Shown in pieces: positions 37,137-57,080 of a stretch of DNA of 64,000 nt; position 1 is the stretch's first letter, and each line of letters opens with the position of its first letter. The notes under the pieces are model-generated. The model did no database searches, was not told the origin of the DNA, and saw nothing but the letters and a program-made list of their open reading frames with translations. The position numbers were made by a program, and so were the translations under genes. Location of the stretch: positions 1 through 64,000 of the forward strand of contig JAJEKV010000845.1 in the NCBI GenBank assembly GCA_021234155.1, given 5' to 3'. Source of the DNA: Isoetes taiwanensis. Lineage: Eukaryota > Streptophyta > Lycopodiopsida > Isoetales > Isoetaceae.

Positions 37137-37813
37137 GACTCAACAAATGACGCCGTATCAAAGCTCAATTGTCCATTTGAACTCATTTGACATATTCTTA
37201 TTCTTTTCAGAGATGATCCATGCCACTTGACTTTAATGCCTCATTTCAATACTTGCACGAGCACTATCCCAAAATGTGCTACCTTTAGCCACTTTAGCTT
37301 AAATGTAGATTAAATGCAGTCCCAGTTGAAAGCAATGTATCTAGACATACAATGGCCTTGGCTATCAAACTCCATGGACCATTTGCCCATGGTGGTCACC
37401 TCAACATGTGCATTTAGCGTTACATTTATCAAATGGCCCATGACCTCTCTTACAGCCGGACCCTCAGAATCCACAAGAAATCTGCCGGAACAGAGCAAGA
37501 AAGAAGCTGCCACGTGTCAAAGTTTAAGTGGTAATTTGCACCATTCATAGATTACGATGCTTTTCGGTGCAATAAAGCAATTAAACGGAATGCATGGAAT
37601 GGAGTGAAGTTGTCGACCTGGGAGACATAAAAACGTGGGGCCATCTAAAGTCGGACAAGCTTAACTGACAGATCGAACAACCGGGTTGGAATTACTGTAT
37701 ACAACCGGGATGAAAGAGCTAGCAGCTGCAAGCTTATAACAGTCTGGTAATACAGAAGCAGAATCATGGCATCAGAAGCAGAATCATGGCGAAGGCAGAA
37801 ACAGCAGTGGTAA

Positions 37814-38600
37814 TACAAACCTCCTACTCCTGTGTATCAGGCTCCGCCTACTCCTGAATACAAACCTCCTACTCCTGTATATCAGGCTCCTCCAACTCCG
37901 ACTTAGGCTGGGTTCACATGCAACCATCGCCGGAGAGGGGCCCTGTTTTGCCCTGTGCTAATCCGTGATGGCAGATGATGCTCCATGTAAAAGGGTGAGC
38001 CTTTTTACATGACGGTGATGGTGCCTTCATTGCATGATTGCATGTGAACTCGCTCTTAGAGCCGGTCCGGTTCACATGCGGTGAAGGTGCCATCACCGTC
38101 ATGTAAAAAGGCTCACCATTTTACATCCACCATCACCGCCGCCAAATCCGACGTGGCAAAACAGGCCCCTACTTCGGCGTGATGGTTGCATGTGAAACCT
38201 ACACCCCCTCTACTCCGAATACAAGCCTCCTACTCCTGTGTATCAGGCTCCTCCTACTCCGACTTACACCCCTACTCCAACCTACAAACCTCCTACTCCT
38301 ACCTATACCCCTACTCCAACTTACAAACCTCCCACTCCTACACCCACATACAAACCTCCCACCCCCTCTTACAAGCCTCCCACTCCAACGTGACAAACCT
38401 CCCACCCCCCCACTTACAAGCCTCCTACCCCTTCATACAAGCCTCCTACTCCCACCCCTGTTTACAAGTCCCCTACTCCCTCTTACAACCCTCCTTCTTA
38501 CAAGCCTCCTTCATACGCCCCTCCAGTGTATCACATGCCCCCTTATCAGATGCCTCCATCCTATGGTTACCCCCCTAAATCCCCTTCCCCTCCTTACTAG
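37814..38600 (+). pseudogene. Tyr/Pro-rich (PRP/extensin-like) cell-wall protein relic, split by a TIR element
   Basis: Before the insert (37,814-37,905) the frame reads as repeats of YKPPTPVYQAPPTP. After it (from 38,200) a one-base deletion puts the next units out of frame, then the repeats resume as YKPPTP, TYTPTP, SYKPPTP and finally HMPPYQMPPSYGYPPKSPSP, stop at 38,598. An in-frame TGA near 38,391 comes from two nearby indels. The Pro/Tyr/Thr repeat is typical of cross-linked wall structural proteins. The usual signal peptide is not found: upstream of 37,814 the sequence is unrelated and contains a small duplication of agaagcagaatcatggc. The relic is therefore both 5'-truncated and interrupted. 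Confidence 0.75.
37906..38199. mobile_element. 294-bp TIR element (Stowaway/Tc1-mariner type by TA duplication)
   Basis: The two ends are long imperfect inverted repeats: ggctgggttcacatgcaacc at the left and ggttgcatgtgaaacc at the right. The complementarity continues inward through cctgttttgcc and again through gagcctttttacatgacggt. TA flanks the element on both sides (37,904-37,905 and 38,200-38,201). Removing it with one TA restores the phrase actccgacttacaccc, which occurs uninterrupted at 38,256 in the same gene. It encodes nothing, so it is a MITE. Confidence 0.85.
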
Positions 38601-39189: not shown

Positions 39190-39630
39190 ATCGAAGTATC
39201 TTGACCATTAATGTCATGTTCTTCTGTGTAAGGCATAGCCATACTTTGTTATGTTAGATCTAAGACATCGATGCAAAGATCCAAGATCATTTCATGCCAG
39301 AAAGTTCCAACCTCTATGGACCACAGGGGGTTTCACATTTTATTGGGGTAGAAAACATGTGCGTTAAACGTAAGGGGTTTTTTTTAAGTTGAAACGTACG
39401 TATACGCCAACCAATTCTACAGTAAACTTGGAGGGGAAGTTGGCGGGAGAAGCTTCTCACTCCGTATACGGAGGCCCTATCTTACATTTGGGATGTTTTT
39501 GCCGTATACATAGGCCCTGTGTTTGCTTTGGGTTGTTGCTAGAGATGTAGGATATTATTCTTTTAGAACTCTTATATTTAAATGACATTGGTCTAATTAG
39601 TCTTTGAATTTGAATGCAGATCGTTGCTTG
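39190..39630. other. Intergenic DNA, nothing recognised
   Basis: Contains gtatac-centred short palindromes (for example acgtacgtatacgc near 39,404 and ccgtatacgg near 39,463) but no gene. Confidence 0.4.
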
Positions 39631-39631
39631 C

Positions 39632-39960
39632 TTTTACCATTATCATTCACGATTGAGAGAACGCTTTTGCGGCCACATATCAATTGTGTGATTCTTTCTA
39701 AGCACAATCATGACCTACAAGATTAAGGCTGATCTACTCCAGTACAAAAGGTATCATAGCTCCCATTTTAGTGTGAATTTTTGTAGCTTATAGAGCTTTT
39801 GCACTATCATTCACCATCCAGACAACAATTTCGCAGCCACATATCAACTGTGGGATTCTTTCTAAGCACCATCGTGACCTACAAGATTAAGGCTGATCTA
39901 CTCAAAAGGTATCATAGCTCCCATTTTGGAGTAAATTTTTGTAGCTTATAAAGCTTTTGC
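39632..39960. repeat. Tandem duplication, about 164-bp unit
   Basis: ccacatatcaattgtgtgat...gacctacaagattaaggctg...gtatcatagctcccatttt at 39,673 recurs at 39,837 with about 10% differences and a small deletion. The unit is non-coding. Confidence 0.8.
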
Positions 39961-41440
39961 TAGCAAACAATTATCAGCTATAACGTTTATGGCTCTTGAT
40001 GGCTCTATCACAATGCCCTTATGAACAAATTATCAGTGCTTTTCTTATGCTTAAGGTGGGTAAATGGAAATTATTTGCTCAGTTGTCTGCATTCTGCATT
40101 GATTTCCTAATTTTTTTTGCATAGAAAACAAATAACCTGCTTGTCTGCTATGATCGTCAAGCAATGTGGCCATCCCCATATTTGGATGCTTATGGCAGCG
40201 AGGTAGCTTAGCAATGCTGGTTTTGCAAGGCTAGGAGAGAGTTACTTCTACTAAAAAATAGCAAATTAAAATGCTTACTAAGGCAGCATTGAGGTCTACG
40301 TTTCTAGGGTTCTATGGTGTCAGGTGAACATTCTTTAGTATTAACATTTTTCTCCTTTCTGTCCTAATTCTATAATGTCTTGTTCTATATGGAAAAATCT
40401 ATCTATAAATCTATATTCTTAAGCCTCACAATGTGCTCTAGCAAAGTGAAACTTTTGCAATATATATACAGATCCGCCTCCACTGAAACTGACATAGTAT
40501 GTCCTTTCTCTGGAACTGACAAATCTGATACTTGACCATGCCGTAGGATCTAATGAGTCTGGTATCTTTGCCACTGGTGGAGGGGGACATCTCTGAAATG
40601 ATAACTTGCATTCTGCCATGCTCAGTTTCCATCTTTTTTAGCTTATTCTGTTAGAACTAGCATCCCCATCATTACGTTGAAGCTTCGAGAATCGGGCATG
40701 AAGGGGGATGGGACATTGTTTCACTTAACTAAGCTTTTACGCTTGTAGACAAAAACATCACTGATTAAATCTCATTTATATTTCATAATAACGTAGTAAA
40801 AAAGGTTTCCTTAGCTTTAACAACATTTAATCTGCTGCATAACTGGCACATTGTCTCTTCTTTGTCAATGCGCTTCACCGTCTTCAATCTCGGTTTGTGA
40901 AGAGAAGAGTAGTGTGCAATTTTTGTGAACTTTTGAAAAGGCTCGTATTTTGTTGAGAACTGAAAGATGTATTTTTTGCTGGAGCTGGGTTTAATTTAGG
41001 CAGGTTGTTTATGAGGGATATCTATCTATGTTCTGCCTTAAAATACAAACCTGATTATGGTGGGGCTTTCTAATCAACTGGCTTGGTAAATATTTCGAAT
41101 GTATTTTTCATATGATTACGTCTAAAAAGGCTGGGTCTCCGGTAAATGCATTTCTAGGAAAGTTTTTGCTTGTCTGCTAGGATTTGTGGCATGGGCCTAG
41201 GGCCACGCCAGGATAGACAAAGTCTCACCCTCTAACTAGTGTTAGTGTTTAGAGTAAGTATGTTTGTTAGATTAAGTCCTAGTAGACCTAGTGGAAAGAT
41301 GGATTGGAGTCATAGGTGTTTGGCTAGATTAGATCTATGGAGGTTAGCATCCAAGATAGAATAAACATCAAATTGATATGCATGCACTAGGACATTACTT
41401 AGTGAGTTTTACTGCAAGCTAAGACTTTGCTGCTTTGATT
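39961..41440. other. Intergenic or intronic DNA, otherwise empty
   Basis: Apart from the exon-like segment at 40,470-40,592 I see no gene, RNA or repeat here. A splice-acceptor-like ttttgcag lies at 41,440-41,447, just before the ORF at 41,452, suggesting an upstream non-coding exon. Confidence 0.4.
40470..40592 (-). other. Orphan exon-like segment (41 codons)
   Basis: Bounded by a splice acceptor (tcatttcag, ending at 40,593) and a donor (gtatat, from 40,469 leftward), and exactly 123 nt long. The frame is RCPPPPVAKIPDSLDPTAWS, SIRFVSSRERTYYVSFSGGGS, well-formed protein with no stop. The family was not recognised. It may belong to the same minus-strand gene as the segment at 48,854-49,049. 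Confidence 0.4.
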
Positions 41441-41451
41441 TTGCAGCCAAT

Positions 41452-41865
41452 ATGCAAACTGATCCGCGCATAGTTGTCATTCACTTAGACGATGGCAATG
41501 GGAACTCCACAGAAGTTGGATTTGTAAGGGTGAAAGATGGTGCCTTGTATGCAGATCTAAGAGAAGAGATCCAAATTGATGAATTAGAAGGACTTACGGG
41601 TTACAACTTTGTTTTCCTTGCCGAGTGTAAATTGCCTTTATCAAAAAAACAAGAAACAAGGTTTAAGATCATGGGCAATGAGGTTCTCGTAAAGTTGACA
41701 GACGACAGAAGTATTCAGCCCTCTAAAAGACCACGTTTAGTTATTGATGAATTAGAAGAAGAGGCTAATCTACATGGTGATGTAGTTGAAGTTATAGAGA
41801 CCCAATGTAATAAGGATGAGGATAAAGATGACTGCATTGATAACAGCAAAGGAAGATCTTTATGT
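41452..41865 (+). pseudogene. N-terminal part of a transposase-like gene (acidic, unknown domain)
   Basis: ATG at 41,452 opens MQTDPRIVVIHLDDGNGNST, followed by a compact domain (VRVKDGALYADLREEIQIDE...YNFVFLAECKLPLS....RFKIMGNEVLVKL), a basic SKRPRL patch and an acidic tail. The frame runs into a LINE insertion at about 41,866, after GRSLC. I do not know the domain by name. Its place just before a zinc-finger segment on the same strand (42,378-42,970), and the seemingly continuous reading across the LINE, suggest one gene with the downstream blocks up to 53.2 kb. Disrupted, so annotated as a pseudogene. Confidence 0.5.
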
Positions 41866-42377
41866 AAGAATAGAATAGAATAGAATAGATTTTTTAACGT
41901 CCACGGAGACCAATAGGTCATGGGACCCATACAATGGGCTAGTACAATCATTACTACTAGGATTAAAAAACCCCTTGCCTCGAAAGGTTTTCAAGGGAAA
42001 AACCTTTGTAGTAATGATGATACTAGACAAGCGGAGATAATGACTACTGAGGGCTTAGTAATTGCCGACGTTTATCTAGAACCTCAAGTATGTATAATGC
42101 CAAGTCATGCACAGATGGTGCTCTGAGAAGTTGTGGAAGCATGGAATGGAATGCTAAGGTCAAAAAATGATTCTGGACTATCTCAAAAGCAGGGCAACTC
42201 AGAAGAGTATGGCTTTCATCTGCAAGATACAGTCTAAATTGGCTACAAGAGCTGAACTGTTTAAGTAGAAAAAAGTCGTCAGGGATTTGACAACTAAATT
42301 GAGAAAAGCAGGCAAGCAGGACCGCTTTGAACTCATGTCTGCAGATGTAAAATCGCAAAGCAACGTTTTCTATATGG
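41866..42377 (-). mobile_element. LINE 3' fragment inserted in the transposase-like gene, (TTCTA)n tail
   Basis: The 3' end faces left: (agaat)n at 41,870-41,888 is the tail, followed by tttttaacgtccacggagac, then gattaaaaaaccccttgcct...aggttttcaagggaaaaa, the conserved family 3' end. The minus frame 42,382-42,044 gives FRLYLADESHTLLSCPAFEI...LALYILEVLDKR, the end of a LINE ORF2 with its DE.H.L..CPAF zinc motif. About 0.5 kb, 5'-truncated. Reading across it restores a CNEC zinc finger to the interrupted ORF. Confidence 0.8.
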
Positions 42378-42970
42378 TGCAATGAGTGTGATCAGTCCTA
42401 TGGAAAAGGTCAACGTGATGTCATTGCAAACTTCACTAAGCATTGTAAAACAAAGACACATATATATAATTATCAGCGCAGTCATAACGAGTCAGTTACA
42501 ACAAATCTTGATGCTATGGAATGCACAGAGGATATTGTTGAACGCAACAAGGCCTTGGTGGAGAAATCACTGTTAAATGATATTACACCTTTTGTAACAC
42601 AGTCTGGTGTTGTCTTTGAGATGTACAATGATAGTGTAGCAGGCTATCTAGATCTGGGTAGCATTTGTGTTGTCTGCAAACTATGTAACAAGTCAATTCT
42701 ACTATTTCCACCAGCCGGATCTGTGGTTGTGAACATGAAACAACATATTCAATCATCTAGGCATGTTCAAAATGCTGCCGCAAAGGAAGCTAGAGAGAAG
42801 AAAGACGAGGAGCCAAACACGAGAGGGAGACCACGGAAAGATCACCCACTTGACCCACGACAAATGAGCATGATGACATTTATTACAAGAGGTACTCTAG
42901 TTAATTTTACAAGAAATTTATCGCGGCGGCCAAGGCCGCCGCGAACATTTCTCTTCCTCGAGTTACCCTT
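42378..42970 (+). pseudogene. Zinc-finger segment of the transposase-like gene
   Basis: The frame resumes with CNECDQSYGKG...NFTKHCKTKTH (a C-x2-C ... H-x-C type finger), then IVERNKALVEKSLLNDITPF...YLDLGSIC and CKLCNKSILLFPPAGSVVVN plus MKQHIQSSRH, a second C-x2-C-xn-H-x6-H finger. An AT-hook-like RGRPRKDHPLDPRQMS follows. A donor-like acaagag|gtactc lies near 42,892. Beyond it the frame passes through a GC-rich palindrome (42,921-42,944) that looks like an insertion, and ends at 42,974. Two fingers plus an AT hook fit a DNA-binding N-terminus. Confidence 0.55.
42921..42944. repeat. GC-rich perfect palindrome, 11-bp arms
   Basis: tcgcggcggcc, aa, ggccgccgcga. Both sides are flanked by gaaat/atttc, so the symmetry extends in broken form. 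The left edge (aagaaattta.cg...gcggccaagg) matches a sequence at 28,274-28,302 in reverse complement, so it belongs to a dispersed element. Confidence 0.75.
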
Positions 42971-42974
42971 GTAA

Positions 42975-43975
42975 GGGCAGATTTGTATAACTTTAGAATG
43001 GTGCGAATTTTTTTCTTAAAATGCATTGCCTAATAATAAAGAATTTGTGTGAGAACATTTCTATATTGTATTGGCTCATGTATGTTGGATTTGTGTGAGT
43101 ATGAATTTGAGAACTAGGGGACTTGAACCCGTGTCATTGCCTCATCATTTTGTGTCAATAGAATAGACGAGGGTTGAGCACATAGTTTTGTTCGAGCATG
43201 GTCTCTCAAAGACAAACCTAAAGACATTTACCACCTATTAACACACAAATTCTTAGCTCCCTATACATTTTCTCTACCCTTTTTTTGTTTTTCTTTCCTT
43301 TTAGATTTTTGCTGATGGTCCTTGGTTCAACTGCAACTTTTTATTAATAGGGATGTAATCACATATTTAGGAGTCGACCTATGGCATAAATGGAAATACT
43401 TGTAACTATATATATACCCACATAGTTGCTCACACTCCATATTTAGTCTAGCATTTTGGCCCCCTCAAAAATTTCCCTTAAAAAGTAACATTTCAATAAT
43501 AAGAGAACCATAGACCAATAAAATATGTATGGCAAAAAAATGCAACTCTAATTCATCGCCTGAAAAAAGCAAATTTGATTATTTTGCCACTGGAAAGAGT
43601 TCTAGAAACATTTTCCAATAGGCTGATATTGCAAACGAGAATGCAATTTTGGAGCCTCTCCAAAGGAATGCTTTTGGGACTCTACTTTTGAATTCACTGA
43701 TTGCAAGCCTCTGCCAGATATATTTTCATGTTTGTCAGAATCAAACTGACCTTTCTGATTTTTATCAGAATGAGAACCCTTCTTTTCTTCTCGAACCGGA
43801 CTCTAAAGTCGCAAAGTGCTTCCAACATCCTTATGTTTGTCCTTCTCAGAGTATTGGGGTTTATAAATCCTTGTTGCCCCGTAATCGGCTGTGGGCGCCT
43901 TGGTGCTTCTTCTTCGATGGGATACCGCATAGATATAGTGATGATCCAAAACTCAAAGACGTGATAGCTTAAGTG
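42975..43975. other. Gap between zinc-finger block and copia LTR, possible SINE head
   Basis: No gene is supported. On the minus strand tgtgctcaaccc (about 43,180) is followed 40 nt later by gggttcaagtccc (about 43,119-43,131), resembling RNA polymerase III A and B boxes. This may be a tRNA-derived SINE head. The frames at 43,649-43,972 (+) and 43,930-43,694 (-) have no domain. The second begins with a true ATG and could be an exon, but that is not supported. Confidence 0.35.
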
Positions 43976-43977
43976 AG

Positions 43978-44123
43978 AAGAATGAATGTCTGCTGGTCTA
44001 TTTCTATAATGACCTTGACCCTTGGATGATGTGTAACATGCCGATGTGGAATAGATGAGGTGGAGGTGACGGTTGGGGCTGAAACAGTTCCCGCCTGCCG
44101 CGGGCCGGGATACCGCGTTAACA
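43978..44123 (-). repeat. 3' LTR of the copia element, truncated
   Basis: Matches 48,594-48,733 of the complete LTR with several differences (for example aatgaccttgacccttgg versus aacagacgcagcccttgg). The U5-side 100 bp of the LTR is missing, and the flank begins at 43,977 without homology. Confidence 0.85.
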
Positions 44124-44163
44124 CTCCCACTCGGGTCTCAACCGGGATCTTCCAAATCAGCTT

Positions 44164-45930
44164 CTATGCCCATGGTTCATGAATGTCGCTTAAACTTTGC
44201 TTCCGCAAAGCTTTTGTAAAAATGTCTGCAGCCATATCTCCAGTTGGGCAATACATAGTCTTGATTCTACCAAGTGCAACTTGCTCTCTTATGAAATGGC
44301 GCACCTCAATGTGCTTGGTTCTACCATGATACTTTGGGTTCTTAGATAGTGCGATTGCACTCTGATTATCACAAAGTAAAACTGTTGGACCTTTTTGGAC
44401 ATATCCAACACCTTGTAATAATTTCCTCAACCACAAAAGTTCTTTGGCAGCTAGAGTCATTCCAACATACTCTGCCTCAGCACTTGATAGTGCTGTTATT
44501 TGTTGCCTCTTGCTACTCCAAGTGATAACACCACTCCCAAGGCTAAAAAGATAGCCAGAAGTGGACTTCCTTTGGTCGACTTCCCCAGCCCAATCGGCAT
44601 CGGAGTAACCAAATAACACACATGGCCTGCTGAGCTTTTGATAACATAACTCAAAATTCATAGTTCCCTTCAAATACCTGAAGATTCTCTTTACTGCAAG
44701 CCAATGCTGCCACCCTGGATCTGCAAGAAACTGGGAAACCACTCCCACTGAATATGCAATATCTGCCCGAGTACACACCATTAAATGAATAAGAGATCCA
44801 ACTGTTTGCCTATATGGAATCATCTTCATCTTTTCTCTTTCTTCATTTCTCTTTGGTGCCATATCCTTGGACAATTTTAAGTTCATCTGCATAGGAGTTG
44901 CCGAAGGATTCAATCCTTCAAACTGAAACCTGCAAAGCATATCCTCAACATATTTCCTTTGCGACAACTTGAGAGTGCCTGCACGTCTATCACGCTTGAC
45001 TTCAATTCCTAGACAATAATGTATATCACCCAGGTCTACCATCTCAAACTGAGATGATAATTTGGCCTTCATCTGCTGCAATAAAGATAGATCCTTGGAC
45101 AAAAGAATACAATCGTCTACATAAAGAGCAATCAGAATGTCTATGTACTCTCCCACTCTCTTCATGTAGACATTTGTGTCTGCTGAATTACGAACGAATC
45201 CCAGCCCAAGTAAGAATCCATCAATCTTGTCATACCATGCTCTAGGTGATTGCTTAAGGCCATAAAGGGCCTTGTGCAGCTTGCACACCAAGTGTTCTTT
45301 GCCGGGTTGCACAAAACCTTCTGGCTGAGCAATATAGATTTCTTCTTGAAGTTCTCCATGTAAAAAGGCAGTCTTCACGTCCATCTGATGGATCTCCATG
45401 TCCTCTTGCACTGCAATGTTCAAAAGGACTCTTATGGATGCCATTTTTACAACTGGAGAGAAAGTCTCGTTGAAATCAATCCCTTCAATCTGAGTAAAAC
45501 CTCTTGCCACCAGCCGTGCTTTGAATCTGTCCACTGTCCCATCTGACTTATATTTTATCTTAAACAACCATTTTGTGCTCACTGGTTTCCGCCCTTGCGG
45601 CAATGGGACTAGACTCCAAGTGCCATTCTTTATCAAGGATTGATATTCTTCCTGAATAGCACGCCACCATTCCTCAGCTTGAGGACCTGCAAGTGCCTGC
45701 TTCATAGTGAGAGGTTCTCTATTTACTTGTCCTTGAGTGTACAACACCCAGCCTTTTTGAGAACCTTTCCTAGAACCCTTATCTGAGCTCTTTCTTTGTA
45801 TTCTTGAAGCTTGATAATCTGCACCTTTTTCTGTCAAATAGCTCACTCTTCCTGAGCGAGTAAGTCCTTGATTTGGCTTGTCAAGAGAAAGACTAGTACG
45901 CTGAATTGAAGGACCATCTCCATCTCTCAA
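44164..45930 (-). pseudogene. Copia reverse transcriptase and RNase H
   Basis: The frame is 588 codons ending at TAG 44,164. Its first codon at 45,930 is TTG in a continuous reading frame, not a true start. Domain landmarks by codon: linker with SGRVSYL, EWWRAIQEEY at about 87-96, the W-x-F-KIK RT start at about 121, FKARLVARGF and FSPVVK at 137-162, QMDVKTAFLHG (motif A) at 182-192, KALYGLKQSPRAW at 220-232 and YVDD at 270-273. RNase H residues are SDADW (Asp444), SSAEAEY (Glu485) and LLCDNQSA (Asp521), and the protein ends in a DIFTKAL block. All catalytic residues are present. It is separated from the upstream gag-integrase frame only by a one-base shift. Confidence 0.95.
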
Positions 45931-48359
45931 GCATGGAGTGGGGGACCTCCAAAATCAAACGGATTTGGTGCTTCAATATTCTGAGGCTCATCTCCCACTG
46001 AATGAGCATCATCTAAGGCATCTAAAGCATCATATGTTACTGGAACTTCTTCAGGCTCCTCCTCATCTTCATCAGAAATAAGAGCACAGGTAGGACCAGG
46101 AGGACTTATGTACATAGTGGACATCATAGTACCATAAGTTTTTCCCTCATCAAACTCCACATGACAACTCGTGAACACTTTTCTGCTTGTCAAATTGAAG
46201 AGCCGATATCCCATGATTTCATCATCATATCCTACCATTATGCACTTGATGCTTTTGCCTTCCATCTTGTGTCTATGCTCCTTTTTAACGTGAGCATAAG
46301 CAAGGCATCCAAACACCCTTAATCTGGTAACATCTGGTTTTCTTGAATACCAAATCTCATAAGGTGTTTGACTAATAGCTGCAGTGTTTAACCTGTTCCT
46401 CACATATGCTGCTACTGATATGGCCTCTGCCCAAAAAGAATATTGCAGACCTGCATAGTGCAGCATACTTCTTGCGCTTTCGGTCAAAGTGCGATTGGCT
46501 CGCTCAGCCACACCGTTTTGCTCTGGTGTGTGAGGAACTGTTTTCTGCCTTCTAATGCCAGCTTGTTCACAGAACAGTTTAAACTCCTTGGAGACATACT
46601 CGCCTCCTCCATCTGTCCTTAAGGCTTTGATTTTCTTACTAAGCTCAAGTTCAACTTGAGCCTTATAAATCTTAAATGCCTCAAAGGCCCCAGATTTAAG
46701 TGTAAGGAACTTTACATGCATATATCTTGAGAAATCATCAATGAAAGTAATAAAGTACCGCTTTCTTGAAAGAGAGAGAGTGCGCATTGGACCACACACA
46801 TCTGAATGGATGAGACCGAGCAGTTCAGATGCTCGATCAACACTGCCACTTCTCTTCTTTCTAAAGGGTGCTCTATGCTGCTTGCCTATGATGCAAGCTT
46901 CACATGTCTTCAAGTCTGATGGTTTCAATCTCATTCCTTGCACTAAATTCTTGCTGGATAATGCTTTGATGGCTCTCTCGTTAGCATGACCAAATCGTCT
47001 ATGCCAAAGTTCAATATCAGCTGGAGTATTTGATATATTGGAGTATAGAGCCATCACTTGCTGTCGGGAGACTATGGCTTTTGCATCTAGGCGGTATAGG
47101 CCTTCACTTCTAAGACCTCTAGCAATTCTCATGCCACTCGCTTTGTTCTTGATAATGCATTGCATACTATCAAATTCCATAATAAATCCTGCATCAGCCA
47201 CCTTTCCTACTGAAAGCAATGTTTTCTTTATTCCTGGGACATAGAACACATTTTTCACTTGAAACTCTTGTCCTGAATGCAATCTGATCGCAATGGTACC
47301 ACTACCATGAACATCATGGTAATAGTCATCTCCAAGAAATATTCTTCTGGATCTTGCACTCTGACTAAAAGTCTGAAATAGCTCTCTCAAATGAGTCATA
47401 TGTTCATTTGCCCCTGAGTCTAACCAGATTGTCTCATTATCACACAATCGCTGATTAGTTGCCATGAATAGACAGGGTTTCTCATCTTCTTCCATGGCTG
47501 CAAAATTAGCACTGGCTTTGCCTTCTCTAGCTAATCTTGCCTTTCTAATGTCACAATCTCTAGCAAAATGTCCTGGCTTCTTGCACTCATTGCATAGATT
47601 TCTTTTCTTATTTTTCTTAGAGATTGGACCCCTACTAAAACTAGCAGGATTATTGGTTTGGGCTTGTGCTTTGCCCTTACCATCATTGGGTTTGCCAAGC
47701 CGATCAAAAACTGATCCCTTCTGCTTAGATCTATTGGCAGCAAATAATGCAAGGGATTCTTCATTACCTTTCTGCATTTTTCGCTCTGCCTCAATTAAGC
47801 AAGCAAACATCTGCTCTAGTGTTTGGCCAGGTATACATTCTAGAGCTATAATTGCAGGTTGATATGACTGAGGGAGACTATTTAAAAACACTGCTTTAAG
47901 ATCTACCTCATCAACCTTTTTGAGAGTTATTGTTTCAATTTGATGCACTAAAGATTTTAACTCTCCAATATGTTTAGTCATGGACTCACCTTCTTTCATG
48001 TTCAACTGGAAAAGGCGCTGCTTGAGGGCTACTTGCTGGTTGACGTTGGATTTTCCTCCAAAAGACTTCAAAAGGCTATCCCAATTCTCATGCACTGTCT
48101 TCGTATCATCCACATGATGGATGAAACCGTTTCCAAGCGCTGAACCGAGCAGCCCCAATGCCTTGGCATTCTTCTCCTCCCACTTGAGGAGCGCAGCTGC
48201 ATCTGTGGCTGCTGGCCTAACATCTTTGCCGGTAACAATCAGCCACAATCCCTTTTCCATGAAATGAAATTTCATTCTGGTGTGCCAGTTATGAAAATTT
48301 TCACCGTCATATTTTTCAATCAACCGCTCTACTGCAACCTTAGAAGGAGTCTCTTCCAT
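45927..48359 (-). CDS. Copia gag, protease and integrase frame (810 aa)
   Basis: ATG at 48,359, 128 nt after the primer site, opens MEETPSKVAVERLIEKYDGE, a copia gag. A CCHC zinc knuckle CNECKKPGHFARDC lies at residues 256-269. The aspartic protease motif WLDSGANEHMTH is at 312-323. The integrase has its HHCC zinc part at 453-488 (H-x3-H, C-x2-C), the catalytic D520 (IHSD), D583 (RTDGGGEY) and E619 (NGVAER), and the HTPEQNG landmark. The frame then ends in an acidic linker with TGA at 45,927, and the RT continues in the neighbouring frame. Without ribosomal frameshifting the product lacks RT. All key catalytic residues are intact. Confidence 0.95.
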   Translation of the reverse strand: MEETPSKVAVERLIEKYDGENFHNWHTRMKFHFMEKGLWLIVTGKDVRPAATDAAALLKWEEKNAKALGLLGSALGNGFIHHVDDTKTVHENWDSLLKSFGGKSNVNQQVALKQRLFQLNMKEGESMTKHIGELKSLVHQIETITLKKVDEVDLKAVFLNSLPQSYQPAIIALECIPGQTLEQMFACLIEAERKMQKGNEESLALFAANRSKQKGSVFDRLGKPNDGKGKAQAQTNNPASFSRGPISKKNKKRNLCNECKKPGHFARDCDIRKARLAREGKASANFAAMEEDEKPCLFMATNQRLCDNETIWLDSGANEHMTHLRELFQTFSQSARSRRIFLGDDYYHDVHGSGTIAIRLHSGQEFQVKNVFYVPGIKKTLLSVGKVADAGFIMEFDSMQCIIKNKASGMRIARGLRSEGLYRLDAKAIVSRQQVMALYSNISNTPADIELWHRRFGHANERAIKALSSKNLVQGMRLKPSDLKTCEACIIGKQHRAPFRKKRSGSVDRASELLGLIHSDVCGPMRTLSLSRKRYFITFIDDFSRYMHVKFLTLKSGAFEAFKIYKAQVELELSKKIKALRTDGGGEYVSKEFKLFCEQAGIRRQKTVPHTPEQNGVAERANRTLTESARSMLHYAGLQYSFWAEAISVAAYVRNRLNTAAISQTPYEIWYSRKPDVTRLRVFGCLAYAHVKKEHRHKMEGKSIKCIMVGYDDEIMGYRLFNLTSRKVFTSCHVEFDEGKTYGTMMSTMYISPPGPTCALISDEDEEEPEEVPVTYDALDALDDAHSVGDEPQNIEAPNPFDFGGPPLHA

Positions 48360-48474
48360 TGCTGGTTGCCGAAACTGCGAGATTGATCTGCTCTATGAAA
48401 AACTTTCTTTGCTTCTGGTTACTGCTGTAACCTTATGTGTTCTTCCCAGAATCCTCTTAATGCTGCATCAGATT

Positions 48475-48487
48475 GGCTCTGATACCA
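48475..48487 (-). other. Copia primer binding site
   Basis: TGGTATCAGAGCC on the minus strand, six bases inside the 5' LTR end, matching the initiator-methionine tRNA 3' end used by most plant Ty1/copia elements. Confidence 0.9.
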
Positions 48488-48493
48488 TTTAAA

Positions 48494-48733
48494 TGTAATG
48501 CAAATAAACAGAGTATATATTCATGAACAAAAATGATACATGATATGATCTCTCTCTCATCAAGATCGATCTCTGATACAAGCAAGAATGAATGTCTGCT
48601 GGTCTATTTCTATAACAGACGCAGCCCTTGGATGATGTGTAACATGCTGATGTGGAATAGATGAGGTGGAGGTGACGGTTGGGGCTGAAACAGGCTCCTG
48701 CAGTCTGCCGCTGCCGGGATACCTGCGTTAACA
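48494..48733 (-). repeat. 5' LTR of the copia element, complete, 240 bp
   Basis: On the minus strand begins TGTTAACGCAGG and ends TTTGCATTACA, with the TG...CA ends. It adjoins the primer site at 48,487. The right flank (from 48,734, ttttagaggacatg) is the insertion site. The partner LTR is at 43,978-44,123. Confidence 0.9.
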
Positions 48734-48853
48734 TTTTAGAGGACATGCAGAACAAGTAGCAAATCACAAACGTTACTTTATGTATATGCTAAGAAACAGG
48801 AAGAAAATAGTGATAATGATCAGTGAGAAGAGAAGAAATGCAAGTTTTATCAC

Positions 48854-49049
48854 CTTTTTGAGTCATGTCGTCGTCAGCATGAGATGCCTGCTTTCTAGCC
48901 TGTTGCCATACTGGAGACTTGGATTGGAGACCACTTACAAACTTCTCGGGGGGTCCGCGCTCTATCTCACAAAGGCCACTTGCAATTTCATGTATCGCCT
49001 GTGATATTGCCTCGAGCTCAACATTACCCAAACCGGAAAGATCGCCTTT
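48854..49049 (-). other. Orphan exon-like segment (65 codons)
   Basis: Acceptor-like ctttag ends at 49,050 and a donor gtgata begins at 48,853. The frame reads KGDLSGLGNVELEAISQAIH, EIASGLCEIERGPPEKFVSG and LQSKSPVWQQARKQASHADD plus DMTQK without a stop. It lies 120 bp to the right of the copia element. The family is not recognised. It could belong to a minus-strand gene that also uses the segment at 40,470-40,592. Confidence 0.4.
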
Positions 49050-49059
49050 CTAAAGCTCC

Positions 49060-49830
49060 AAACAGGGTAGGGAGTTACGGAATAAGAGTAGCGTCATTCT
49101 CTAGATTAAAATATGATTTTATGAAAAGCCTTTTAGCCAAGGTCGTTGTATTAGAGCTTCAACACGCCAAATGGGAAAACCCGCCAAACCCAAAACACAA
49201 GAGTCTCGTCGGGTCTGCCGATGCCATATGCTCTAGCCCTGGTTCACTCAAACTTCGGGCTTACTTGGTCCATAAGCCAAGTTTAGCGATCCAATTCGCC
49301 GCCACAATCTACGCTTGAGCTCTCGAACACGCCATTGTAGCATTCGATTTGGCTATGATATCTCTTTGATATAGTAAATGTGCCCAAAAGCCGCAGATAT
49401 CGTCAAGAACCGCAGCAGGCTTGAATCGAGAAAAAATAAATGGATCCGAGAAACAAAACGAAGTGTATGGCCTCTTCAGATAAGAACATTCCCAAAGCCG
49501 GGTCTGGAGGCCGAAGCTGAGAAACAAAACAGGGGCACACACTGTCATGCGCAAAATAGGGACACACAAATCCAAACTTTCCCACCAAAATGCTCTGCAA
49601 TAGATGGAGCTTCTGCCGCTTCCCAGATCCGGCGATGGCGATGCAAGGCGCCATAGCCAAGCCAACCCCTTATTTCGCTGTTTTTTTTTTCTCTAATTTT
49701 TTAAACCCCTATTTTTTCCTCAGAAACCGCATCAACGAATATTCCAAAAGCATTTTCCTAGGAGAATTATATATGTTTTGATAATGGTTTTTTATTGATA
49801 AGCTAAAAATTTCTGTTTTTTTGCATTGCA
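49060..49830. other. Intergenic or intronic DNA upstream of the transposase-like core
   Basis: Overlapping frames at 49,309-49,665 on both strands have no domain. No RNA gene was seen. A splice-acceptor-like run (tttttttgcattgcag, near 49,831) precedes a short block that leads to the main frame at 49,920. Confidence 0.4.
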
Positions 49831-49904
49831 GCAACATCATCTAGAGTGGATAAGGGAGATCAGACTAGTAAGTTTTCATTTCTTATTTTGATTGCAAGTG
49901 TGTA

Positions 49905-52313
49905 GTGCTAGATGTTAAAATATTTGAAAATACAGGAAATGAACGCTTGGCTTCTTTATGTTGGGGTTACTGGCAAATGAAATATAGATATGCATCTGGG
50001 TCAAGAGACTTGAGGCCATTTTTAGATGAATCAAGACTTGGATCCAATTGGTACTGTGACCCAAGCATAAAGTGTTGTTTTAGTGTTAAAGGAGAATCTA
50101 TTATTATTGATGGGACATTTAGGCACACCTCATGTATAAGAGTTAGCAATGATGGGAAACCCTTCACGAACTACCAATGTTCATATTGTTTGTCAATACC
50201 CAAGCAATCTGATTTTAGAATGAGGGTTGCTAGACAAAAACTAGATAAAACACCAAGAGGATGGAGAACGACAAAGACACGTATTAGAGTGGATTATATG
50301 ACCAACAGAGAGATGTATAACCTTGCAAAGGTCACAACATGCAAAAAGAGGAAACTAGAAAGAGAATTGTTGTTTACTAGAATGAGAATTGTCACATTGT
50401 CTGCGAAACAACGATCAATCCGTGATAGTCTAGCTGAATCCATGCATCGGAAAGATGTGAAAAAGTTTTGTGCAGACATTGTTGAGGCCCACTCTCAAGG
50501 TAAGTTTGAGGGGAAGGCTGCATTTTGGAATTTTCTTACAGACACTGCACATAACATAATTAGGCCGGGGCAAGCAAGGCGCTACAAGCAAACGACGAAG
50601 GAGCTCTTTCAAACAATCAAGATTTGGGGAGGGCGAAGAATGCATAATTTTTTGTCGTTGAATTTTTCTGGCCCTAGCTTATCAACCACTATGCGGTCTT
50701 CTCGAGAGAGTTTTACATATAGAGTTGGTGTTAGAGAGGATACCTTCATTCACTTAGCAACAACATATGCAAAGCATATGAAGGATTTAGATTTGACACT
50801 CGGACATGTGCCTGCTATGAAACTGTCATAAAGAGGACCATACAGTGGATTGCAAGAGACGATGGTTTGGTTGGCTTCTGTGGCAAGCTTTATGATCATG
50901 CATGTGATGCTTCCTTTACAGTTACTTACTGTTGGATCAGAAAGAGTGGTTACCAAAACATTGTGCAGGCATTTGCAAATAATGTGATAGCACATTATGC
51001 ACGAGTACTCATTGTTAACCCCTTGCATGCTCGCTTACCGAAGCTTGTCTTGGTGATCCAGCTTACGTGCAATAAGTTTGATCACAAGTTTGTAAGATTA
51101 CAATGGGAAGAAATACTTAGACTTTGGGACATGCATTTGAGTAAGGTCTTAGGGCCCCTAATTGGACATAGCTTCTGGACCGGAGATGCTTGTGGCCAGA
51201 AAATGCATCTTTGCAAGATTATACATCAAAGAGGCCCACTAACTGTTTTCGCATTCATTGGGAAGGATGGGGTTTAAGTGGCAGTGTGTATGGTCTTCAT
51301 GACCAAGACTTCATACATAATGGAAAGAAGTTGATAAATCCCCTTGATAATGCATCAAGGAGATTGTACCTAGGTACTGAGTTAGTGACATTGAATGATG
51401 TTTGGCATGTCTTTAAGCTATGCCATGGAGAGCATGGATTACAAATAGGAGACGTGGAAAGGAAAGATAGGCGTAATTGGGGGCTGCCCAAAAGAATTGC
51501 ATCTAGAAGAGTTCGTGACTTGTTTACTTAAAATTGAGAAATGATATAAATGCTCCACAATTGCGAACATTAGGTACTGAAACCTACCTTGCTGTGGTAT
51601 CATTATACATTGATATCTTCTTGTCACCCCATATGAACTTAAACTCACGGATCAAGGCAGCTTCGACCGTATCTTTTTTTTCAGGTGTGAAACTAATTTA
51701 TTTTTCATTCTTATTTGCTATTTTGGTGTGATTTCTTCCCTCAAATTGTATGTCCTGCCATTGCAGACTTTGGAGGGATTGTTAATCATGAAACCTATTC
51801 CCTCGGCCAAAATTTTATAAGCCGTGAAACCTTTATGGACATTCAAATGTCTTGCCATTTTGTTGTTCTATTGATAAAGTATTTTCGAGATCACTGTAAG
51901 GATCTAGCAGTGCCACTACATTGCAAGGGATCAGATGCTTGCAAGAATTTTTCTCCAAAGTTGGAGGTATGGTAAGAAATGAGAGATCATACACTGGTGC
52001 AGATCTCCTTGAGAGTGCAAGGGCTCTCAATAAGGTGGCAGAATTTCAAGCTCTTTCAGATTTGATATTCCCTGCAGCACATGCAAAACAAGAAAACATT
52101 TGGCAGGTTATTGAGCGCCAAGTAGACGAAGACGGCAAGGAAGTAATTTGCGATCTATCTAATTATAGTGAAGTGAGCATAGATGACGATATTATAGCTA
52201 CTTTAAAAGAAGGCTTCTTGGTTGCAAAAGAGTTATGCAATCAAGTAGGTATAAAGTGTGATGGAAACTCAACTTGGTGGGAGAAGCCATGGCAGATGGA
52301 GGATTACTTTTAG
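49905..52313 (+). pseudogene. Core of a large transposase-like gene of unassigned family
   Basis: Read through four frames: 49,920-50,831, 50,823-51,277, 51,190-51,690 and, after an 82-nt GT/AG intron (51,685-51,766), 51,767-52,313. Landmarks in order: WGYWQMKYRY...DEVRLGSNWY-like start, CSYCLSIPKQSDFRMRVARQ, WNFLTDTAHNIIRPGQARRY, GRRMHNFLSLNFSGPSLSTT, DDGLVGFCGKLYDHA, YARVLIVNPLHARLP, FDHKFVRLQWEEILRLW, GLHDQDFIHNGKKLINPLD, LGLPKR-like basic stretch, TYLAVVSLYIDIFLS, NFISRETFMDIQMSCHFVVL and HCKGSDACKNFF. The D-x-D-x-x-H-x-x-K-K pattern resembles the second catalytic region of some RNase H-fold transposases (P, Kolobok). I recall uncharacterised multicopy proteins in invertebrate genomes with the same blocks but cannot name or check them. 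Frameshifts near 50,830, 51,230 and 51,770 make this copy non-functional. Confidence 0.6.
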
Positions 52314-53216
52314 TTCAGACTATTATAAGCAACTAGACTCTTGTCACATTGAGGATGAATCTGATTATGTCGGAAGTTGAAGCCGAGCTTGAATGTTCTC
52401 CCACATCGTAATCCGTGAAGCTTCTCATGATAGTGAGCATCTTGACCAGGAAATTGTTGCAGAAATGGAGATAAGACATACCTTGATGAGATGCTAGATA
52501 AGGAGGAGTTAGGAAATGATATAAAAAATTGATACAAAGTGGATATTGACGACAAGAAAGTATGCAAAGCGACGCTAGTTAGTCATCTTAATGGAAATCC
52601 TTGGCTCGGAAGGATAGGTCGACTAGAGTAAAGAGTCATGCAAACTATAGTGCGCTTGGCAAGAAGATTAATCTTGCAACATCCCCGGAATTGGATCCGA
52701 TTGTGCAATTTATTTTGAGATAGAAAAGGTGAAGCTTTAAAGCCTAGGAGAGGAAGCTTAGATGGGGAAAATCACTTGTATGGTGCGTGGGCAAGAGTGT
52801 TAAGTATTAGGAGAAAGATCGGTAAATGATGGAGGGAAAGTAGAGAGCCTATTGACTTGACTAACCGGCCTTCTTATTGCGTGGAGGTGAATCTGGCTTG
52901 GCATAAAGAACACAAGGAGAGAAATTCTATCTGGTTTTCTTATGACTTGTCAAATCTTCAGCTTATATCACTTGACTCCATTATTTCCCTTGCATGCATG
53001 GTATATAAACCTCGAACATGTAGATACTATTTAGATGGGAATGACAAATGCCAATTTGATAAGTTTTGGTCGATCAACAAAAAGGTTGGAATGTATGACA
53101 CTAAATTTTCATTAATTATATGTTCTAATATTTCCCCTTACGTTCCTTTGCAGAGAATAAAGGAAGCGAAAGATCGTTTGAAGCCTAGTTTGTCTAAAGC
53201 ATGCTGCTCATGGTAG
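52314..53216 (+). pseudogene. Decayed C-terminal part of the transposase-like gene
   Basis: After the stop at 52,313 coding-like stretches continue in shifting frames: SEHLDQEIVAEMEI, then CKATLVSHLNGNPWLGRIGR, ARVLSIRRKIGK and the open frame 52,857-53,216 (NRPSYCVEVNLAWHKEHKER...YDLSNLQLISLDSIISLACM). Together they read as one C-terminal domain with basic (IRRKIGK.W) and YDLSN...LD.II motifs. Many small indels are needed, so decay is stronger here than in the core. Confidence 0.45.
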
Positions 53217-55365
53217 GTCTTTGTCCATTTCGAGCTACTTTTGGTGCGCGTTCTTATAAGTTAAGATGGCTAAGAACCTCAAGGTTGAACATTTAATCTA
53301 CATAAACTTTAAAGCGTAGATTAAATGTCGCACTTTAACTAATATTGAAAGTGCTCTGCTTTGATCCCATGAAGGCAGGCCGCTTTGAAACAGATTTTTG
53401 CATTTTGAACACCCGCAAGTGATTTTAGTGAAGTTTGTGTATTTGTATATATAAGGATGCAAGCAGATGTCATCTAGTTTTGTATGTTCAAAAATCTCAA
53501 ACCGCTATATTTCTAAGATCACTGTGTCTCTATACTTTCTTTATTAGGGTATTGCAGATCATATGCTGCTTATGGTAGACATCGTACTATAAAGATGTTG
53601 GTTTGGGATGATTGAGTATGACTATGTTGGTCCGCTTCCACGATTTAAGTTACTTAGTATCGACACTGTTGCATTTAGGTCCATAGATGCTTGCATAATT
53701 AATAAGGTCATGTTTCCAAGTTCATAGAACACATGTGAGAACGCATACATGTATGATAAGGTAAGATACAACCGCTTGCACATTTATTTATGACATCCGC
53801 AAGAATTACAAAAGAAAAGCGACTCATCTACAAAGAGCTTTGGAAGAGCAAAATAGCTGCCATAACATTTACTTGAGAGGTGAGTGCAAGGGCTTTGTTT
53901 GCACAAGACTTATATGTTGTTGAAGCAATTGTAGAAAGTAGTGAGTTAAAAGTATAACATGTTCTAAGGGTTCAGACTTGCTCCAAAAATAAGATGATGC
54001 TAAGGATCATATTTATTTACGATTTGTACAACACATGTTCTGCTGTTGAATTGGGTAAGAATAGTCGTGGTCAATTTGATTGGGAAGTCGTAGCATCGAT
54101 TCTAAGTGTAGAGGACGACATTCGGTATTCTATTATGTTACGTTGAATGTTTTAAGGTAAAATATTGAATGAACAATTGCTATGGCCCGGTAGAAGTTAG
54201 AGACGGATCCCCGCAATGACCTATGAGGATATTACATCAAACAAATTTGTTTAGTTGATTGGCATAATCAAAATGATTATCGACAACGGCGGCATTGCCT
54301 ATGAGGCCAATCGGACCGATCAAGAGGAGCGACCAAAATCTAGGAGTTTCTCTTTTGCGAAATCAATTGCTCATTTGAGGTTGTGGTCCGTTAAGAATTT
54401 TTGTTGACATATTTTTAATGGCCTTATTAAGGTGCACACGAGAACTTAATGTGGTGCCCCAAAAAATTGGACCATGTATTAATTGCAAGGCTTAAATATG
54501 CACATGAGAATAAGAAAACAGTTTTAAGATCGAGCTCTCGGACCACATTCATAGGGCATCTGGAGCCACAATCTCCCACTAAAGATTCTACATTTGACGC
54601 AAGAGGCACAAGAGTTCTAAATGTACAACTTCACTTGGAACTTTCCAATTTTACTTAATGTTCTTGATGAGACCCTTCATATGTGGCATAGGAAAAACGT
54701 TTACCTAACCCCACCTTAGAAATGTGCCCAAGTGAGATTACCGACCTAACCCCACGTTAGGAATGTGCCCAAGTGACTTTACAGGTTCGGCATGCCTCAT
54801 TGTGAAGCGTTTATATGAGAATAAAATAACATTATGACGTAGTGGATAAGTGGACAAGACTATAAGCGGCAACATTTAAACCTAGTATTAATTAATCCTT
54901 TGCAAAATGTTAAATGTGTGTCTTGGAAGCTTTCCTCACTTAGAGGCTCAACGTCCTAGCTTTATTTGAGATCCTCACAAAATGAAGAAAAACCCTCAAT
55001 TTAGGATCTTAAATTGCATTGACAAACCTTATTGCATCATTGCCTTGGGACAATGTACAACATGTTCTTCTACTTACATTGGAAATCATATGCTATACCG
55101 TTATTTGCAAATTGAGTGCCTACTTTCATAGAAGACATAACATTCTAAACTACCACTTGTGAAAAATATTATTCTACAAATGGCTTCTTAGCTTTGACTT
55201 GATTTTCATTTATTCTAGACTTTGATTCAAAGCTTTGTGTGTGCCTTTTGTTCTCTAGTGTCCTCCATGCCATTTGTTCTCTAGTGTTCTAAAATTTGCT
55301 TCAGAGCTTTCGTTCTCTAGTGTCCTTGCCTTACGGAATGCAACTTGACTTGATGGAAGGAAGGA
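53217..55365. other. Old repetitive or intergenic DNA, no supported gene
   Basis: No domain was recognised in any frame, including 54,449-54,658 (+). A phrase of about 30 bases (taaccccac..tta...gaaatgtgcccaagtga) is repeated at 54,706 and 54,749. Confidence 0.4.
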
Positions 55366-57080
55366 AGGTACTTTTATCGTCCACGGAGACCAATCGGTCT
55401 ATGGGACCCAATACAAAACGCAAAGAAGCGGATTATCGCCCGGATTAAAACCCCGCCAGAAGGGTTTTCGAGGAAAAAGCGTAGGCGTTAATCACCGGCC
55501 GTGACAACTAATGGCACATATACAATGCGAGAAATACCCAAATATATATGATCATGCACCTTTTGGTAGTGCCCAATCAACGGCGAAAGCGAGGCGGGGG
55601 CAAAAGGTGACCTCCGGAGTCCGGCACCTCCCACGAATGTACGACCCGGTGGCACGCGTGACCGGCGGTGTGTTCATCAGCAAATGTAAGGGGCAAGTCC
55701 GGCCATTACTAAGGGCGTCGATTCGGCCCGGATATTGACCGAATGACCGGGCAACTTCTCGAAAGTGAGAGACTCATCCTCAATGGCACCCGTTTGACAA
55801 GACCGACAGCCACGTCACGGCGGGCTCCCCAATCCACGCACCGTCCGATCGCGAAGATGGTGGGCACTCGTGCGAATGGAGGCAATGAGTCTGGCGGCGC
55901 CAAAGGTACCGGGAACGCGTAGAGCCGTGGACCCCGGGCTAACACGGGGTTGATGTGCTCCTTTGTAATGGCCGCTTTGACCTGTTCTAGAGTGCGTCAG
56001 GGTCCCAGAGCTTGCCAAGGAAACAAGCGCCTAGGCATCTTCAAGAAGCCGTCACGATCGGGCTGCCAGGGTTCAATTGCGACGACCGGTGTTTTTCCGT
56101 ATCGCTCTATATGGCTTAACCAGCGTGTCTCTTACCCCTCCAACAGGCCTAAGCCGAGGACCCATTGCCACGATTAGTAAGCCCGGCGGAGCCGAGCATC
56201 ACCTATAGTAACTACTTTCGAAAAGGAGCGATGTGTTCTATCGGCTGTCGCTGAGGCGGCAAAGAATCCAGTTTCTCGCGGCGAGACCGCGGGGGACTGA
56301 AGGTTTAACCCCTGGGGTGCCCGTGCAAAATGCCTTTTGACCTCCAAGTCATTCCGTGTTTAGCCAAAGAGACAACTGGGCCCCAAACCTCGACCCGTCT
56401 GAAGGGCCGGACAAAGCCCGACGGTGCGGCCCGATGGCCCCAATCATAGAGCTCGCACGGTGGCGTTGTTTACGCATGGCATAAAGCTTTCCCGCCTTTG
56501 TCACCATAGCGGATAGATTAGCGCCCTCAGATGAGGAGGGGAACTCCACCCCTAGGTACTTGTAGGTGGGCATGGCGTCCACGGGTTGCCCCCGATATGT
56601 GAGGCGAGGAGGCATGGGGTGGCGTGAAGAGGATATGAAACCACCACGGTCTTGGCGGATTTCGCGGCGCGTAATCAGCGGCGACAAAATGTGTCTAGGG
56701 CATCAAGTGAGATCATAGAGCGGGGTGTGGGCAAGCGGGCCAACATCGTCCCATATAGATGGTGGCGGATGACCGGTGCAAAAGCTGTATGCCATCCCCA
56801 TGCTCGGTAGAAGCCGGGGCTCTAAGCGATCAATGTAGAGGCCAAAAAGTGTTGGCGAGGGGGCAACCTGTGGGACCCGATACCTACTTGGTGAATGCTC
56901 GCCCGTCGCCGGCATCTGCCAAAACAACTCTCATACAACCCAGTATATGGCATTACGCATTGTGAAGCGGGGCTTTGATTGGCCTAGATCTAGCCGCCTT
57001 TTCCCAGGGAACCGTATCAAAAAAGCCAGCGAAGTCCACAAAGCGACAATATTACTCAAATAAGGCCTCGTGAAGGTTCA
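55366..57080 (-). mobile_element. LINE, 5'-truncated, (TTCC)n tail
   Basis: The 3' end faces left: (ggaa)n tract at 55,357-55,368, then tatcgtccacggagaccaat and the gattaaaaccccgccagaag...ggttttcgaggaaaaa stem-loop block. Minus frames 56,927-56,703 (APSPTLFGLYIDRLEPRLLP, RT motif B region) and 56,687-56,349 (MPTYKYLGVEFPSSSEG) place it in the same family as 24.3-27.8 kb. About 1.7 kb, CpG-rich, with several frame breaks. Confidence 0.8.

Follow-up and report, generated by a model that had tools for sequence, protein, structure and literature searches.

The stretch analysed here (the window: 64,000 nucleotides of the lycophyte Isoetes taiwanensis, contig JAJEKV010000845.1) contains three protein-coding blocks on its plus strand between positions 41452 and 53216, which are exons of one transposase gene of a single broken, large cut-and-paste DNA transposon that is multicopy in this genome. 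The open reading frames (ORFs) of the first two blocks lie at 41377-41883 and 42351-42974, and the core that follows is split into several frames from 49872 to 53216, all on the plus strand. In five other copies of the transposon (L013, L004, L006, L008 and L012), a single open exon encodes the acidic N-terminus together with the AT hook and the two zinc-finger-like motifs, and the core follows in two further exons, which indicates that the three blocks of the window are one gene, as the original prediction had proposed. That prediction would have been refuted by blocks belonging to unrelated genes in relatives, and the idea of three unrelated genes was rejected because the blocks are joined in one gene in other copies. 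The gene had been described as split over 11.7 kb. The split stands and results from nested insertions (about 41870-42221 and 42910-49775), but the extent was too small, as the window copy of the transposon runs from 39323 to about 57477 and is degenerate at both ends. Its parts are as follows.

39323..39340, plus strand: left terminal inverted repeat, first 3 bases degenerate; matches the pattern CCCGGGGGTTTCAC with 2 mismatches, and homology to other copies starts here
39630..39960, plus strand: internal tandem repeat, two units of about 160 bp, in the untranslated 5' portion of the element, found by repeat search; also in the C1007, C1037 and C1048 copies
40244..41372, no strand assigned: segment of about 1.13 kb that the window copy shares with C1007 and that C1037 and C1048 lack
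41452..41869, plus strand: exon 1, first part, acidic N-terminal region; 98.8% identity to C1037 with 0 insertions or deletions (indels); part of a single exon in L013
41870..42221, no strand assigned: 352-bp insertion within exon 1, lacking in C1037 and C1048
42222..42891, plus strand: exon 1, second part, with two C2H2-like zinc-finger motifs and an AT-hook-like GRPRK (motifs by eye); no Pfam model above the cut-off
42910..49775, no strand assigned: 6.87-kb insertion in intron 1 that holds a Copia element; absent from the C1037, C1048 and C1007 copies
43978..48733, minus strand: Copia long terminal repeat (LTR) retrotransposon nested in the 6.87-kb insertion; Pfam RVT_2 at 2.6e-78, plus gag, rve and SH3 domains
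49936..51684, plus strand: exon 2 of the transposase, running from CWGYWQ to STVSFF; several indels break its frame, and it differs from C1037 by 17 indels at a substitution identity of 98%
51301..51330, plus strand: DQDFIHNGKK motif (DxxH at 51307-51318), its D and H are present in all 22 copies with these columns aligned
51685..51766, plus strand: intron 2; its phase and GT..AG boundaries were deduced from where the ORFs of L003, L004, L006 and L014 end and from the window sequence
51767..53060, plus strand: exon 3 of the transposase with GSDAC(E/K)NFF, frame broken, 3' limit approximate; open in L013, L014, L003, L006 and L012
53154..53216, plus strand: possible short last exon (EAKDRLKPSLSKACCSW), weak, in the window's own subfamily only
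55357..57050, no strand assigned: insertion of about 1.7 kb near the 3' end of the element, lacking in C1037 and C1048
57400..57477, plus strand: right end of the element, where the terminal repeat lacks its final bases; homology with the right ends of C1037 and C1048 extends as far as 57477

The 1.13-kb segment is either an older insertion or the trace of a deletion in C1037 and C1048. Exon 2 is open in L001, L004, L006, L008, L013 and L014, and its splice sites in the window were read by eye. The candidate last exon was found in 4 of the 15 sequences searched, several of which are too short to reach it, and a stop lies just upstream of it in three of these four.

Copies, termini and target-site duplications

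Copy number, boundaries and duplications were observed directly in the genome assembly (1,658,258,908 bases in 1,110 contigs). Using a read-through of the window core as the query, we obtained 96 matching stretches, three of which are the window itself and 93 of which lie elsewhere at 35-95% identity; this count is a lower bound, with 59 of 1,424 candidates scored. At least 500 query residues were covered in one frame without an internal stop in 15 rows of this search. The match pattern is far beyond chance and, judged by sequence similarity, the genome holds dozens of relatives.

The boundaries were examined by comparing 10-kb stretches around seven copies together with extended flanks. The terminal inverted repeats begin CCCGGGG(G/A)TTTCAC, which is where homology between copies stops; beyond about 15 bp the repeats are imperfect, with inner blocks shared. 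Both ends could be read directly in five of the seven copies (L013, L014, L015, C1037 and C1048), and all five are flanked by a perfect 8-bp target-site duplication. The span between the ends is 7.6-8.2 kb in L013, L014, L015 and C1048 and 9.5 kb in C1037. L013 combines its perfect duplication with a transposase that, once spliced, reads without interruption for about 1,385 residues. In a survey of 24 further end pairs, 20 from one subfamily and four from the subfamily of the window, the 8-bp duplication was exact in 23 and had a single mismatch in one, the C1007 copy, whose ends lie about 40 kb apart. Combined, the 8-bp duplication is perfect in 28 of the 29 copies for which both ends were read and has one mismatch in the remaining one. 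As a control, the flanks of the 24 surveyed pairs were mispaired, and this gave no exact or one-mismatch match in 552 comparisons. The 29 duplications show at most a weak G..TA..C preference. These counts leave out the C144 copy, the window copy (ends degenerate), C1030, C1066 and C1079 (left end, no right end found), and C924 and C1044:4237973 (right end, no left end found); C1061:6496155 is the same copy as L014 and was counted once. The host genome therefore contains what the original prediction had proposed to look for, namely multicopy relatives (93 matches) with shared terminal repeats, CCCGGGG(G/A)TTTCAC, and duplications of 8 bp. Terminal inverted repeats and a target-site duplication of fixed length (8 bp) are two features of the terminal inverted repeat order of class II elements, and both are present.

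Searching the genome with the end patterns of one subfamily returned 21 left ends and 235 right ends, with none in a reversed control, so right ends of this subfamily far outnumber left ends. Among the right ends found, for which 100 of the 235 places were listed, each of the 21 left ends was paired with a correctly oriented right end 2.5-8.6 kb away. A joint pattern consisting of the terminal repeat and the inner CATGTGCGT block gave 171 exact termini, with none in the control, and about 100 of the 171 were listed; several other left-end variants occur in that listing near the same type of right end. Together, the right-end excess and the left-end variants suggest many non-autonomous derivatives. 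The sequence beside the C1048 copy (L011, 399-2052) contains a unit of about 320 bp repeated in tandem and short repeated pieces of the left terminal repeat, an arrangement that looks like a duplication of the end region.

The transposase gene and the decayed window copy

The gene structure was read from reading frames, and in L013 it comprises three exons. Exon 1 encodes the acidic region, two C2H2-like motifs and the AT-hook-like motif GRPRK (by eye), and exons 2 and 3 encode the core; exon boundaries and phase were read from ORF ends, and the C-terminal end is uncertain. Within alignments of intact exons (nine and eight rows), the motifs AEDET, SSDGDARRR, HD(Q/P)DFIHN and GSD.CENFFSK are invariant or nearly so. 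The GSDAC.NFF motif singled out by the original prediction is present in the window, but most other copies read GSD(A/C/V)CENFF. The candidate catalytic positions in L013 are D655, D774 and E1009, with spacings of 119 and 235 residues, and a DxxH at 823-826. When decayed copies were included in an alignment of 23 rows, which are not all independent (L013, L014 and L015 are close to one another, as are L002 and L011), the first D was kept in 21 of 23 copies, the second D in 21 of 22 and the E in 19 of 21 where the column was aligned; both the D and the H of DxxH were kept in all 22 aligned copies.

Between subfamilies, the proportion of nonsynonymous differences (pN) is 0.11-0.28 versus a synonymous proportion (pS) of 0.44-0.88, and most subfamily pairs are near synonymous saturation. 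Where the synonymous rate could be estimated, the ratio of nonsynonymous to synonymous rates (dN/dS) between subfamilies is 0.10-0.18, and elsewhere pN/pS is 0.24-0.37. The near-identical pair L013/L014 has dN/dS values of 0.29 in exon 2 and 0.15 in exon 3. The transposon family is old, diverse and under purifying selection in this lineage.

The terminal repeats, the 8-bp duplications, the conserved candidate D, D, E and DxxH residues and the low dN/dS together lead us to conclude that the family is a cut-and-paste transposon, probably of the DDE type, and the earlier identification of the window gene as a transposase is borne out by its terminal inverted repeats, 8-bp duplications, multicopy distribution and purifying selection. 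In the mechanism that we propose, the N-terminal zinc-finger and AT-hook region would bind the element ends, and a putative RNase H-type DDE core (D655, D774 and E1009, with the DxxH in the D-E interval) would cut both ends, leading to double-strand excision of the element. The cut ends would then be joined to nicks staggered 8 bp apart in the target, which would produce the 8-bp duplications, and internally shortened derivatives may be mobilised in trans.

The window copy is very probably a dead copy, interrupted by nested insertions, of a large DNA transposon of the autonomous type whose transposase gene contains introns. Its exons show about 98% substitution identity to C1037, with 0 indels in the first part of exon 1, 4 in the second part, 17 in exon 2 and 15 in exons 3-4. 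None of the three candidate catalytic residues survives unchanged: the first D falls within a 13-bp deletion near 50816, the second D within an indel cluster at 51176-51212, and the E reads K at 51943-51945. Some of the one-base indels of the window may stem from long-read errors left in the unscaffolded contig, and others may be changes in the compared copies, as C1037 and C1048 are also broken at some points. At the second catalytic D, substitutions and indels are clustered over a CpG-rich stretch (51153-51215), which could be a long-read base-calling artefact.

Other features of the window concern the insertions and the surroundings of the element. The direct repeats flanking the Copia element are about 150 bp long and are 89% identical over 152 aligned positions (99-100% in ungapped pieces), and its coding region, on the minus strand of 43978-48733, lies in two overlapping frames split at about 45.9 kb. 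A perfect G+C-rich palindrome with 10-bp arms and a 2-bp loop (42922-42943) is located just within the left edge of the 6.87-kb insertion. The 1.7-kb insertion (55357-57050) has a higher G+C content than the element; Rfam gave only a weak sub-threshold match in it, and no family reached the gathering score across the window. Just outside the transposon, at 37812-38550, there are proline-rich repeats (YKPPTPVYQAPPTPTYTPT-like, by eye) of the extensin or proline-rich cell-wall protein type; three reading frames tried there had no Pfam match with an E-value of 0.01 or lower.

Relation to known superfamilies

The original prediction could not place the protein in hAT, MULE, CACTA, PIF, Tc1-mariner or piggyBac, and profile searches agree with it. 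With Pfam at E up to 10, no MuDR, CACTA, PIF-Harbinger, Tc1-mariner, piggyBac or Merlin transposase domain was found, nor was there a match in the family to the hAT C-terminal dimerisation domain (PF05699), and a sequence search of the PDB gave no match. We also compared profiles using hhalign, with sequence shuffles and column-shuffled profiles as decoys; the P element sequence was checked against 6p5a_A and that of Hermes, a hAT transposase, against 2bw3_A and 8edg_A. A hAT C-terminal profile was built from six copies in the same genome (6 of 10 loci among L069-L078). This profile scored 24.8 against the family, above all 100 column-shuffled decoys (top 24.0), and 24.5 against a deeper family profile, second to the best decoy (25.0). 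As a positive control, it found Hermes at a probability of 97%, and it showed no link to P (score 10.9), which indicates that the test has little power for distant kinship. The best local alignments of all three comparisons (P, Hermes and the hAT profile) set E1009 on the known catalytic E. This placement weakly favours the putative triad assignment and a distant link.

We file the family as a cut-and-paste transposon of unassigned superfamily that works like the hAT/P group, and its transposase may represent a new transposon superfamily. Our tentative reading, to which we give slightly less than an even chance, is an undescribed cut-and-paste superfamily with CCCGGG termini, 8-bp duplications and a giant zinc-finger DDE transposase of the C/DxxH group, which is old and diverse in this lycophyte and possibly shared with invertebrates through ancient descent or horizontal transfer. 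Against a separate superfamily stands the shallowness of the family's profile (effective number of sequences, Neff, about 2). Other observations weigh against the cut-and-paste explanation proposed above or against parts of it. Pfam detected no transposase domain of any kind in the window blocks and, at E up to 10, none in the intact exons, the fragments or any member of the two alignments. For the DDE triad of an RNase H fold, the candidate D, D and E are conserved, and the sole structural model, a single-sequence AlphaFold prediction of the window ORF at 50735-51274, has a predicted local distance difference test score (pLDDT) of 38 and gives the fold no support; the triad assignment draws on conservation, spacing and near-chance alignments. 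Of the 29 duplication-bearing copies, 9 have a core match between their ends, which is where the presence of the gene is demonstrated, and the other 20 copies are mostly short (2.5-6 kb). The duplications were read at occupied sites only, no terminal repeat was detected in the C144 copy with as many as 3 mismatches allowed and its flanks extended, and the window copy has no readable duplication because both of its terminal repeats are degenerate.

A very divergent branch of hAT, whose sequence has drifted past Pfam recognition, is an unlikely but serious alternative. Like our family, hAT elements are of the cut-and-paste type, with 8-bp duplications, N-terminal zinc-finger motifs and a C/DxxH signature (PMC10045372), and their E motif has a similar form; here, the GSDACENFFSKIGGMV motif is similar to the one that surrounds the catalytic E in hAT, and the DxxH of the family is hAT-like. 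The weak central TA preference of the duplications also recalls the nnnTAnnn of Buster-type hAT elements (PMC3517528). The hAT profile scores above, with E1009 on the hAT E, lean the same way, as does Hermes alone, which at 24.1 exceeded the top of 40 sequence shuffles (21.4) but fell below the top column-shuffled decoy (24.7). With the deeper profile, Hermes scored 21.6 versus 26.9 for the top decoy and was again unexceptional, yet the hAT profile readily recognises Hermes. Furthermore, the Pfam dimerisation model had 150 scored places (of 1,152 candidates) in the genome, none of them at family copies (by eye), and the Ac-type T2/A7 pattern occurs in 2 of the 29 duplications. Whereas hAT termini are CAGGG-like, those of the family read CCCGGGG. 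The family transposase, at about 1,385 residues, is also about twice as long as Hermes (612 residues, 8edg_A).

A branch of the P element superfamily appears more doubtful still. P elements likewise make 8-bp duplications, and their catalytic residues D230, D303 and E531 (PMC7776569) are spaced 73 and 228 residues apart, similar to the 119 and 235 of the family in the D-to-E interval, with a DxxH in both (DTPH in P). The best local alignment sets E1009 on E531 of P. However, the hhalign scores against P (17.2 and 19.0) are at chance, below many shuffles and decoys and below the reversed P sequence (20.5), exon 1 contains no THAP domain, and Pfam found no P RNase H or GTP-domain match in the family. 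The P RNase H model found nothing in this genome at all, although it was silent in control genomes too. We also considered an immobile host gene family domesticated from a transposase, which would fit the purifying selection and the many open copies. This explanation is extremely improbable and was rejected, as all 29 two-ended copies carry a duplication (28 exact and one with a mismatch), nine of them with a core match inside, and the family includes many copies that have decayed as well as short elements that share its ends.

Kolobok, MuDR and Dada are the other C/DxxH groups. MuDR duplications are typically 9 bp, and the family gave no MULE profile match. Kolobok differs in its 4-bp TTAA duplications (PMC9587614), whereas those of the family are 8 bp of varied sequence. 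Dada elements (PMC3706591) make 6-7 bp duplications, target snRNA or tRNA genes and have no terminal repeats, in contrast to the 8-bp duplications and terminal repeats observed here.

Beyond this genome, two alignments and three degenerate motifs found no relatives among IMG/VR viral contigs, and none were found in GTDB genomes and phages; these searches concern viruses, prokaryotes and phages rather than animals or plants, and the motif scans, which need exact short-peptide matches, reach close relatives only. Similar proteins may occur in invertebrates, as the original prediction also suggested. Literature searches aimed at the transposon family returned no description of it among the matches listed, which comprised titles and the beginnings of abstracts, with subscription papers mostly outside.

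In Repbase, eukaryotic DNA transposons were divided into 23 superfamilies, of which 21 have a DDD/E transposase (PMC10045372). If the reading of an undescribed superfamily is true, this list would gain a genuine new member that is multicopy and still has open copies in a vascular plant. Element ends, duplication length and open copies are known here in enough detail for a direct transposition test and a classification tree to be designed, and the family could explain some of the repeats that are still unclassified in lycophyte genomes.

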